A stretch of DNA of 64,000 nucleotides from Methylophilus sp. 14 (GTDB taxonomy: Bacteria > Pseudomonadota > Gammaproteobacteria > Burkholderiales > Methylophilaceae): NCBI RefSeq assembly GCF_015354345.1, contig NZ_JADKYS010000005.1:1-64000 (forward strand), written 5' to 3'. The notes below the pieces were generated by a model. The model made no database searches. It was not told the origin of the DNA and saw only the letters and a program-made list of their open reading frames with translations. Shown in pieces: positions 31,996-34,851 of this stretch (position 1 is its first letter; each line of letters starts with the position of its first letter). The translations under genes were made by a program, and so were the position numbers.

Positions 31996-32562
31996 ATGGA
32001 GATCGTCACCTTAGTCATATTCGCAGTGTTAACGCTTTATATCATCATGCTGTATAACAGTTTGGTCAGCGTTAAAAACAACATTGCCAAAGCCTGGTCA
32101 AATATTGAAATACTGCTGAAGCAGCGTCATGACGAGTTGCCTAAACTGATTGATACCTGCAAACAATATATGAAGCATGAACAAGACACCCTGGAAAGGG
32201 TGATGTTAGCCAGGTCACAGGTGTCTAAAGCGCAGCAGTCACATGACGTGAACGCCTTGGGCACCGCCGAAGGGGCATTGCGCACTGGCTTAGGCCATTT
32301 GTTTGCCGTGGCAGAAGCCTATCCTGAATTAAAAGCCAACGAAAATTTCCTGCATTTACAATCTCGCATCAGTGGGCTAGAGAACGCCATTGCTGACCGC
32401 CGTGAGTTTTACAATGAAAGCGTGAATATCAACAACGTACGTATCGAACAGTTTCCCGATCTGTTAGTGGCGAAACTATTTAACTTTCCCCGCTTTGAGC
32501 TCATGCGTTTTGCCAGTGAAGAACTACGAGACATCGATATCGGCAAACGCTTTAATAGTTAA
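31996..32562 (+). CDS. LemA family protein
   Basis: A 188-residue LemA protein: an N-terminal membrane span (IVTLVIFAVLTLYIIMLYNSLV), then a cytoplasmic or periplasmic helical bundle with the family motif SLVSVKNNIAKAWSNIEILLKQRHDELPKLI and FYNESVNINNVRIEQFPD near the end. A strong ribosome site AGGGAG lies just before the ATG. Function is uncertain; LemA proteins often pair with a membrane peptidase or, as here, with a GIDE-domain protein eight bases downstream. Confidence 0.93.
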   Translation: MEIVTLVIFAVLTLYIIMLYNSLVSVKNNIAKAWSNIEILLKQRHDELPKLIDTCKQYMKHEQDTLERVMLARSQVSKAQQSHDVNALGTAEGALRTGLGHLFAVAEAYPELKANENFLHLQSRISGLENAIADRREFYNESVNINNVRIEQFPDLLVAKLFNFPRFELMRFASEELRDIDIGKRFNS

Positions 32563-32570
32563 ATTGCACC

Positions 32571-33482
32571 ATGTTGCAGTTTTTACGCGGTCACGATAAC
32601 GACGCGATTACATCCGTTGGCCATCTGACCTTGTTGCTGATGGCCGTGTATGCCCATAATCAACGGGTATGGATAGGCTGTTGCAGTGTGATCGGCCTCA
32701 TCAGCCTCTGGGCCTGGGCAGCCAACTATCAAAGATGTCGTGTCATTTCAGATACACCGACCTCACGCATCGCCTCCGCTGCACAAGGCTATGTTGAACT
32801 ATATGGGCGCACTGCGATGGCGTTTAACAATTTACTGATTAGCCCCTACAGCCATACGCGCTGTATTTGGTACCGTTATCGCGTCTATGAAAAAGAAGAC
32901 AAAGGCTGGCGCCAGGTCAGCAATCAGACCAGTGACAGTATGATAGAGATGAGCGATGGCACGGGCAGCTGTGTGATCGATCCAGATCACGCAGAAGTCA
33001 TTTCTCCCGATCGCAAGGTAGTGAGCCAAGGCGGCTTTAAATACGTGGAAGAGCTGCTGAGGAGCGACGCAGTGTATGCCTTAGGCGAGTTCACAACCAT
33101 AGGCGGTGCCAACGCCATGCTCGATTTGAACTCAGATGTAGCGGTCTTGCTGGCATCCTGGAAAGAAAACAAACAATCTTTGTTGCAACGCTTTGACCTG
33201 GATGGCAATGGCGAGATTGACCTGAAAGAGTGGGAGTTAGCACGCAGGGCGGCGATGCGTGAAGTCGAGAAAGAACATCGAGAGATCCGCGCAGCAGATG
33301 GCATCCATGTGATGCGGGCACCAAAGAATGGTCGGCCATTTCTATTATCCAATCTATCACCACAAAAGTTACGCAACACCTATCGATGCTGGGGTGCCGT
33401 GCATTTAACCATTCTCTTTCTGGCAGTTGCAGGCGCACTATGGTTCTGGCAAAGCAATACGCTGATCGAACTGTTTACTTAA
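32571..33482 (+). CDS. GIDE-domain membrane protein with EF-hand
   Basis: A 303-residue protein with a hydrophobic N-terminus (about 17-50), a GIDE-like domain (about 60-180: GYVELYGRTAMAFN, SPYSHTRCIWYRYRVYE, a WR-x5-SD stretch, GSCVIDPDHAEV) and a C-terminal membrane span (about 277-293). Between them, residues 209-220 form a perfect 12-residue calcium-binding EF-hand loop (DLDGNGEIDLKE). GIDE domains occur in the mitochondrial ubiquitin ligase MUL1 and in bacterial proteins beside LemA, where no RING domain is present. The gene is coupled to lemA. The EF-hand suggests calcium-responsive control, which is inference. Confidence 0.75.
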   Translation: MLQFLRGHDNDAITSVGHLTLLLMAVYAHNQRVWIGCCSVIGLISLWAWAANYQRCRVISDTPTSRIASAAQGYVELYGRTAMAFNNLLISPYSHTRCIWYRYRVYEKEDKGWRQVSNQTSDSMIEMSDGTGSCVIDPDHAEVISPDRKVVSQGGFKYVEELLRSDAVYALGEFTTIGGANAMLDLNSDVAVLLASWKENKQSLLQRFDLDGNGEIDLKEWELARRAAMREVEKEHREIRAADGIHVMRAPKNGRPFLLSNLSPQKLRNTYRCWGAVHLTILFLAVAGALWFWQSNTLIELFT

Positions 33483-33621
33483 ACTGTCTGAAAGCGCGCA
33501 ATAGAAGAAGTCGTGCTGCCTAACTGCCCAAACCTTACTACCATCCTGCCTGCACAAACCGCCTCTGAGCAACGATGAATATTTGAAAGCATGGCATGAC
33601 TACTTGTGTCAAAATGCTGCA

Positions 33622-34851
33622 ATGACTCAACCGCCTACGCGTATCACGCTTGCCTCTGACCGTTACGAACGGCTGGCACAAATCCGTGACTGCTTTCCGC
33701 AAGCCTCGGGGCCAGACTTGTCCCCGGCTTGGCAAGGCGGACGTGCGTCTGCATTAGCGCGGCTATCGGCGGTGGATGCTGAAGACTATGCGCGTAGCCG
33801 CAACCAGCTCACAGGCGCAGCGACCGGCTTATCGCCCTACCTGCGCCATGGCTGCCTGTCGCTGCAAGAAACCATGGCGGACGTGCAGGCACGGTTTGGC
33901 AAACACTCGCACAAACTCGCCGCAGAACTCAGTTACCGAGATTATTTCCGCCAGGTCTGGTACCGATTTGGTGAAGCGATCATGCAGCCCATGGAGTCTC
34001 CCAAGGTAGGCTTAGGCGATAAACCCATGCCAGACTTTATTGCACAAGGCTTCACCGGGCTGGTGTGCATGGATGAAATCGTGCGCCAATTGCAGCAACA
34101 TGGCTATGTACACAACCATGCACGCATGTGGTTTGCGGCTTATGTCGTGCATTGGCTCAAGGTAGACTGGCGACAAGCTGCCGATTGGTTTGAAACACAA
34201 CTACTGGATGGCGACACGGCATCCAACCATCTATCCTGGCAATGGATCTCCTCCAGTTTCAGCAGCAAGCCTTATATTTTCAACAAAGAAAATCTGACCA
34301 AGTTTGGCGGCGAATCCTGGTGCCAGCAATGTCGTGTCAGCTGCCCGTTTGAAGGCAGTTATGAACAACTGTATCAACAACTGTTTACTGAGGCAGTGGT
34401 CGCACCCCCACCCGCCCATCATATAAAACCGCCGCCCCCCACGCCCAAAGGCGTCGCGAGCCTGGTATGGATACACGACGAGATGCTGTCACCAACGCAT
34501 GCGCTATGCGCCTTTAACCTGCCCGCTGTATTTATATTCGACCCGGCACTGTACCAGCACTGGCCACTCAAGCGCTTGCAATTCATGGCTGACTGCCTGG
34601 CTGAAATGCCAGGGGTAGATATCTGGCTGGGACAAACCAATCAAGTACTGGCGCGGCTCGCGCAGGGTCGGATCATCACCCAAAACACGCCGCAACAGGC
34701 ACTCAAACAAGCGGCAGCAGGGCTGGATATTGAGTGGCGCACCGAGCCTGTTTTGACAGAAACGCCGTTAAGCGACCACCAACTCATGCGTTTCAGCCGC
34801 TACTGGAAAGCGGTAGAACCCAGCCTCACGCGCGGCCTTTGCACAAACTAG
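33622..34851 (+). CDS. Photolyase/cryptochrome-like FAD protein with swapped domain order
   Basis: A 409-residue protein. Residues about 35-255 match the FAD-binding helical domain of photolyases: GGRASALARL, SRNQLTGAATGLSPYLRHG, AELSYRDYFRQV, YVHNHARMWFAAYVVHWL and DGDTASNHLSWQW. After a proline-rich linker (256-278) comes a domain (about 279-377) that resembles the alpha/beta antenna domain normally found first in photolyases: SLVWIHDE, VFIFDP, then a helix starting KRLQFMADCLAEM and DIWLGQTNQVLARLAQ. Cys234, Cys237 and Cys241 (SWCQQCRVSCP) could hold a metal. The ATG at 33622 is chosen over an upstream TTG at 33583. Activity could be photorepair or light sensing. Confidence 0.8.
   Translation: MTQPPTRITLASDRYERLAQIRDCFPQASGPDLSPAWQGGRASALARLSAVDAEDYARSRNQLTGAATGLSPYLRHGCLSLQETMADVQARFGKHSHKLAAELSYRDYFRQVWYRFGEAIMQPMESPKVGLGDKPMPDFIAQGFTGLVCMDEIVRQLQQHGYVHNHARMWFAAYVVHWLKVDWRQAADWFETQLLDGDTASNHLSWQWISSSFSSKPYIFNKENLTKFGGESWCQQCRVSCPFEGSYEQLYQQLFTEAVVAPPPAHHIKPPPPTPKGVASLVWIHDEMLSPTHALCAFNLPAVFIFDPALYQHWPLKRLQFMADCLAEMPGVDIWLGQTNQVLARLAQGRIITQNTPQQALKQAAAGLDIEWRTEPVLTETPLSDHQLMRFSRYWKAVEPSLTRGLCTN

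Follow-up and report, generated by a model that had tools for sequence, protein, structure and literature searches.

The gene at positions 33,622 to 34,851 of the window (the whole 64,000-nucleotide stretch of the Methylophilus contig analyzed here) very probably encodes a single-chain FAD photolyase of the Phr6 type, with its two domains in reversed order, a probable 4Fe-4S cluster, an origin by gene fusion, and CPDs as a likelier substrate than (6-4) lesions. The protein belongs to the reversed-order photolyases that have already been described; its unusual order is true and conserved, and it carries Fe-S-type cysteines. We found no earlier report of overlapping split gene pairs being so widespread among its relatives, of the fused form nesting within them, or of their bearing on short photolyases that are supposed to lack an antenna.

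The gene and its catalytic domain

The open reading frame, which runs from an ATG to a TAG (Table 1), is genuine. Matches at E ≤ 1e-100 were found in 72 of 150 Methylophilaceae genomes (counting the source genome and including three partial matches), and the nearest protein, from Methylophilus sp. QUAN, is 92% identical. We calculated dN/dS against two relatives, L004 and L005, whose proteins are 92% and 84% identical to the source protein. The FAD part gave ratios of 0.17 and 0.10, respectively, and the C-terminal domain 0.08 and 0.04 (the last value with saturated dS); both domains are under purifying selection. The linker between them gave 1.85 and 0.22; it is fast-evolving and varies freely. 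For two further relatives (L006 and L007), dS was saturated, and hence no ratio is given for the FAD part or the C-terminal domain. Conservation and dN/dS together rule out a chance or decayed reading frame.

The gene precedes valS, and genes for ValS and LemA are frequently close to the photolyase gene in Methylophilaceae loci. At 31996-33482 of the window, a LemA gene is followed by one whose GIDE-like product has a stretch weakly resembling an EF hand, and relatives of both are found near the photolyase in many Methylophilaceae loci. Other, ordinary photolyase-family genes are also encoded in the same genome. In a Methylotenera locus, a photolyase gene with PF00875 and PF03441 lies directly upstream of the fused gene (L011:3243-4832), and L009 has a similar frame. 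DPRP-type photolyase genes lie directly upstream of a split pair (L213:2-1492) and of a NewPHL-like gene (L227:2-1480). Judging by these four loci, photolyase genes cluster. A strict-pattern search of 33001-34000 returned no LexA-like site, and a scan of viral contigs returned no relative of the reversed photolyase.

Table 1. Features of the reversed-order photolyase gene, in window coordinates
Feature	Position	Strand	Details
Reversed-order photolyase CDS	33622..34851	+	409 aa; 17 complete fused relatives among 42 loci (L004-L045)
FAD-binding catalytic domain	33727..34386	+	Residues about 36-255; Pfam, PDB matches, AF2
Cys149, putative first 4Fe-4S ligand	34066..34068	+	28/29 fused rows (remaining row gapped), 23/23 split rows
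Cys234, Cys237, Cys241, putative other 4Fe-4S ligands	34321..34344	+	29/29 fused rows, 23/23 split rows
Proline-rich flexible linker	34387..34455	+	Residues 256-278; low pLDDT, dN/dS, ends of split proteins
Alpha/beta antenna-type domain	34456..34827	+	Residues 279-402; AF2, hhalign, PDB profile search, PF00875 in family members

The FAD domain stands first, as a first-pass annotation of this DNA had claimed, since FAD_binding_7 of Pfam matches residues 101-219 (E 2.7e-23) and all matches to solved photolyases, among the 40 PDB sequences that match the protein at E ≤ 0.001, fall within residues 16-239. Only about 35 residues lie N-terminal to the domain. In searches to E 10, PF00875 had no match in the full protein, so the N-terminal antenna that defines ordinary class I enzymes was not found, and PF04244 (DPRP), which defines FeS-BCP enzymes, likewise had none up to E 10. 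The three best PDB matches were a Synechocystis cryptochrome (1np7), a Thermus photolyase, and a class III photolyase; a Drosophila (6-4) photolyase also matched well, and the sole FeS-type (6-4) enzyme, 8ijy, was last of the 40. The AF2 model of the whole protein (pLDDT 91.2, pTM 0.90) has pLDDT means per ten residues of 80 to 98 across the FAD domain, and its 50 best structure matches are photolyases or cryptochromes over 226 to 297 columns, which we take as covering the FAD part.

We surveyed conserved residues across 29 fused rows (drawn from 48 fused or fused-fragment loci, with frames on the + strand only), 23 split rows, and 38 NewPHL-like rows. E102, R106, N165, R168, M169, W183, D196, D198, N202, and W206 are kept in nearly all rows of the three sets, and we take the roles of these positions (FAD, catalytic, or Trp) to be those known from E. 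coli photolyase. Furthermore, the N-x-x-R-M motif and the DGD...N...WQW stretch align with E. coli, Anacystis, and class III photolyases. Tyr105 aligns with E. coli W277, presumably a substrate contact; at this position the fused rows have Trp (16) or Tyr (12), while Trp is present in 23/23 split rows.

A cysteine triad at residues 234, 237, and 241 had been pointed out in the first-pass annotation as a possible metal site. The cysteines are where it placed them, while its spacing of CxxCxxxxC is by count CxxCxxxC, and the triad forms a quartet with Cys149, whose near-invariance strengthens the idea of a metal site. Judging from this pattern, the protein probably carries a 4Fe-4S cluster, with C149, C234, C237, and C241 as putative ligands. 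In a wider set, all four cysteines are present in 52 of 114 fused rows, in 29 of 30 rows labeled split (which include L017, a fused gene cut at a contig end), and in the source protein, with the same genomes duplicated from two collections. The triad is absent from all NewPHL-like rows (L046-L083), in which single cysteines occur at these positions; the source protein has the triad and a separate place in the tree, and so lacks this mark of a NewPHL. One split pair (L214) has a FAD protein without three of the four cysteines. Meanwhile, five reversed photolyases without the quartet (L219, L220, L224, L225, and L231) have a C-terminal part that matches the antenna profile (E 6e-5 to 2e-9), and they could form a link between the antenna domain of the Fe-S enzymes and the Z-domain of NewPHLs.

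An antenna-type domain at the C terminus

The proline-rich linker noticed in the first-pass annotation is borne out by the AF2 model, in which pLDDT falls below 50 at residues 265-276, and the FAD proteins of split relatives terminate at about its first residue. Beyond the linker, residues 279-402 are predicted to alternate strands and helices, with five strands, and the domain modeled alone reached pLDDT 89.3 and pTM 0.75. Judged by profile comparison and the predicted fold, these residues are related to the N-terminal antenna domain of ordinary photolyases, a kinship that had been claimed for residues 279-377. Neither outcome that had been named as speaking against it, the lack of a Rossmann-like fold or homologues with an unrelated C-terminal domain, was found.

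The C-terminal domain of the source protein, searched as a single sequence, had no Pfam match, PF00875 included, and no PDB match of use, so that the antenna case is built on the family profile. A match of this domain to FtsL was below the cut-off and of no use, and one split antenna protein searched against the PDB had only one match, which was unrelated (E 0.72). In hhalign, the family profile aligned to ordinary N-domains with P 95.8, a score of 57.0, and E 7e-9 (for one pair of profiles), and with fewer rows P was 94.4 and the score 51.9. Column shuffles scored at most 25.6 in 100 trials and 20.7 in 200 more. Controls scored 7.5-16.2 overall (Usp, ETF, and reversed N, Usp, and ETF profiles), with Usp and ETF at 9.0 and 12.9 in one run and 10.6 and 16.2 in the other; the domain's own reversed profile scored 25.7 with P 13.6, and P for the other controls was at or below 0.4. 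The N profile comprised 30 rows (L130 was omitted as a copy of L002), and the Usp and ETF profiles were made from 21 and 25 of 30 loci, respectively, chosen by frame length. Searched against 177,635 PDB sequences, the family profile returned 12 matches up to E 10, of which the ten best were photolyases or cryptochromes; these were weak (E 0.033 to 0.44), and several were versions of one protein. The matches fall at N-terminal residues 25-114 or, in one fusion, at 263-295. Similarly, PF00875 was matched by 16 of 38 family members at E ≤ 1 (best 2.2e-4), followed by DPRP, also a photolyase family, with four members and ten other families with one each; the domain from L045 scored 15.5 bits against PF00875, with a curated cut-off of 26.6. 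A Foldseek search of 350,542 chains placed a single class II CPD photolyase, represented by three entries, at ranks 1 to 3 (E 5e-3 to 3e-2, TM 0.39-0.41), with nothing reaching E 0.001 and other alpha/beta proteins from rank 4.

These four approaches agree, each being weak or limited alone. We consider it very unlikely that the C-terminal domain is instead an unrelated Rossmann-like domain, for example of Usp or ETF type, that was joined to a short photolyase and does not act as an antenna. The failure of the source domain to match anything by single sequence, the weak Foldseek scores, and the other alpha/beta proteins from rank 4 could be read that way. However, photolyases head the Foldseek, Pfam, and PDB profile searches alike, and the Usp and ETF profiles scored no better than reversed ones (9.0-16.2, compared with 51.9-57.0 for ordinary N-domains), on which ground a generic Rossmann domain was rejected.

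Split relatives and the origin of the single chain

The same order recurs in homologues, as the first-pass annotation had suggested looking for. Among the 42 loci L004-L045, there are 17 complete fused genes, two fused fragments at contig ends (L017 and L021), 20 adjacent pairs, and three FAD-only loci. The genes of the split pairs stand in the same order as the domains of the fused form, and 14 of the 20 pairs overlap by 4 bases, two by 1, and four by more, as reckoned from script-chosen starts (in L025 and L026 the antenna gene lacked an identifiable ATG, and its start is a guess). One FAD-only locus lies at a contig edge (L031), and in the other two another gene comes next. In these two Chloracidobacterium loci (L043 and L044), the FAD/Fe-S gene is followed by a pyridine-nucleotide-disulfide-reductase-like frame (named by eye), with no antenna gene directly downstream, and they are possibly truly antenna-less.

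Split pairs are spread over Verrucomicrobiota, Chlorobiales, Acidobacteriota, Betaproteobacteria (including Ferrovum), and one Deinococcus plasmid; two adjacent genes for the domains are seen at many loci of Acidobacteriota and Verrucomicrobiota. Further pairs, with the FAD gene first, were found in L204 and L210-L214. Among Deinococcus plasmids, one annotated pair overlaps by 4 bases and three others have fused genes; the genes on these plasmids (L203, L204, L236, and L237) are annotated just as FAD-binding domain-containing protein, and the split antenna gene as hypothetical protein. A search at the level of the order matched 56 of 399 genomes at E ≤ 1e-40. Thirty of the order's loci were examined: four from Methylophilaceae are fused, the next five by rank (L210-L214) are split, and the remaining 21 lack the cysteine quartet and consist of a single gene (that of L229 being stop-interrupted). 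A contig binned as Paceibacterota (L032) bears a Verrucomicrobia-like pair, reflecting either misbinning or transfer.

We then compared architecture with trees of the FAD domain, in which the fused and split states of the Fe-S forms require three changes. The fused Methylophilaceae clade is sister to the split Ferrovum (support 98/97), and the two are joined by further split Betaproteobacteria with support of 96/92 in the first tree and 95/90 in the second. The second tree omits L011up, an outgroup row that was poorly placed on a branch of 8.1, as well as L204, L018, and L214; nesting and the three changes were unchanged by the removal, and NewPHL support was lower. Both trees label L031, L043, and L044 as split, and among their split rows are two that duplicate others, from a second collection. 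AU tests rejected a single clade of all fused Fe-S forms (p-AU 0.00064) and a single clade of all split Fe-S forms (p-AU 2.8e-8), for groups that were defined by architecture but after the first tree had been seen. As outgroups the trees had only class I photolyases from the order, and the root within the reversed clade is weakly supported (72/48), so the direction of change is supported for the Methylophilaceae branch only.

From the arrangement of these sequences, the single chain most likely arose by fusion of two adjacent genes on the line to Methylophilaceae. The first-pass annotation had favored a circular permutation, which would involve tandem duplication and trimming of an antenna-FAD gene, with the split forms as later fissions. 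The need for three changes leaves some room for it, and the weak deep root is compatible with an ancestor that was fused and later split several times. However, at two successive nodes the closest relatives of the fused Methylophilaceae clade are split, with adjacent and often overlapping genes in the same order; split FAD proteins stop where a freely varying linker begins; and the pairs span all of the lineages listed above. Permutation in the true sense therefore appears quite unlikely to us. Fusion would have joined an ancestral pair, catalytic gene first and antenna gene second, that was probably translationally coupled, and it offers a simple origin for the odd domain order.

Function and relation to described photolyases

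The protein is most likely a light-driven pyrimidine-dimer photolyase. The C-terminal domain would pack against the FAD domain in the way known from ordinary photolyases, and with its bound chromophore would absorb near-UV or blue light and pass the energy to FADH-. FADH- would then donate an electron to a flipped-out pyrimidine dimer, which splits, while the Fe-S cluster may keep the fold together. The chromophore is probably not 8-HDF, which we consider an unlikely candidate since CofG (TIGR03550) was above the cut-off in 1 of 21 genomes; in the source genome it reached 19.5 bits, with a cut-off of 213.35.

As for the lesion, a CPD is more likely than a (6-4) photoproduct. PMC9426592 argues from the Fe-S cysteines for a (6-4) role of Phr4/Phr5 and Phr6, and the source protein has four cysteines like those of FeS-BCP (6-4) photolyases; in that account, loss of phr4/phr5 cut survival after UV-C and not after UV-B. 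Nevertheless, the N-x-x-R-M and WQW residues align with CPD photolyases (in an alignment that does not display (6-4) residues), the FeS-type (6-4) enzyme trails a list of PDB matches led by a cryptochrome and the Thermus and class III enzymes, and SPLs are reported, in Xu et al. 2021 as cited in PMC9649867, to be CPD photolyases with an Fe-S cluster. We therefore regard the (6-4) reading as unlikely, if still deserving some weight. A cryptochrome that senses light and has lost repair activity is a very unlikely alternative: the ordinary photolyase-family genes of the genome could do the repair, but Glu102 and the substrate-side residues are kept family-wide, and phr4/phr5 are described as protecting E. 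coli from UV-C (PMC9426592). A light-driven CPD photolyase thus remains our preferred reading.

The first-pass annotation was aware of no permuted photolyase, yet the architecture is in print. PMC9426592 (mBio 2022) describes reverse domain order in picocyanobacteria, with split Phr4/Phr5, fused Phr6, and four Fe-S cysteines, and PMC13274461 describes NewPHLs and SPLs with inverted domain topology. No other report of a permuted, reversed, or inverted photolyase was apparent by title, within a coverage that excludes preprints and most subscription papers. In PMC9426592, the Phr6 and Phr4/Phr5 proteins of Cyanobium and marine Synechococcus have the FAD domain first and the photolyase domain second, like the source protein, and are fused or split in adjacent genes, like the reversed Fe-S family here. 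The Fe-S ligands given there for Phr4 of Synechococcus RS9916 (C169, C254, C257, and C263) share with the source protein a first spacing of 85 residues (C169-C254 and C149-C234) and a CxxC, but three residues precede the last cysteine in the source protein and five in Phr4. Furthermore, the cyanobacterial genes are separated by seven G-C base pairs (PMC9426592), unlike the 4-base overlap of most split pairs here. The phr4/phr5 genes are reported to have little effect after UV-B. The likeness to Phr6 and Phr4/Phr5 is by this published description. Our results extend the range of reversed-order Fe-S photolyases beyond picocyanobacteria, so that it takes in Methylophilaceae, Acidobacteriota, Verrucomicrobiota, Chlorobiales, and Deinococcus plasmids, among other groups.

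NewPHL, or Phr7, of Dinoroseobacter and Methylobacterium has a FAD domain followed by a Z-domain, the same order as the source protein. From lineage and architecture, we infer that L046-L083 are NewPHLs. Their FAD domains group with the source family against class I outgroups (100/100) and form a separate branch, with support of 98/83 in the first tree and 81/63 in the second, and unlike the source protein they have no Cys234/237/241 triad. In hhalign, the Z-domain aligned to the source-type C-terminal domain with P 93.9 (76.7 in the other direction) and a score of 48.7, and directly to ordinary N-domains with P 13.7 only; two of 38 loci (L048 and L079) were dropped from the Z profile because the cutting motif was absent. 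In the null for this comparison, a single shuffle out of 100 reached 129.98, an unexplained outlier that exceeds the 48.7 of the actual pair, and 200 others scored at most 22.5.

FeS-BCP enzymes (PhrB and CryB) have four cysteines for a 4Fe-4S cluster and FAD, matching the putative set here, but their antenna is N-terminal and of the DPRP type, and they are more distant in sequence, 8ijy being the worst of the PDB matches. Class I and III CPD photolyases have both domain families and share FAD and substrate residues with the source protein, but with the antenna domain first; to our knowledge they have no Fe-S quartet.

Finally, SPLs, attributed to Xu et al. 2021 in PMC9649867, PMC9178010, and PMC9498864, resemble the source protein in having a CPD-type FAD domain and no N-terminal alpha/beta domain, with an Fe-S cluster in the form treated by PMC9649867; this likeness is by description in those papers. 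As described there, SPLs are without an alpha/beta domain and a possible ancestor, whereas the source family has one at the C terminus or in the next gene. We suggest, as an idea about evenly balanced between right and wrong, that the short, supposedly antenna-less photolyases of the reversed clade are mostly two-subunit enzymes, in which a FAD/Fe-S protein works with a detachable antenna protein from a coupled gene, and that the two were re-fused in reversed order at least twice (in Methylophilaceae and in Deinococcus and Acidobacteriaceae lines, and perhaps in NewPHL with its Z-domain). If this is true, an overlooked gene underlies the proposal that SPLs represent the photolyase as it was before gaining its antenna. 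The published idea thereby becomes testable, as short photolyases are either antenna-less and ancestral or have their antenna in a second gene, and split pairs would allow antenna energy transfer to be studied by adding or omitting a subunit.
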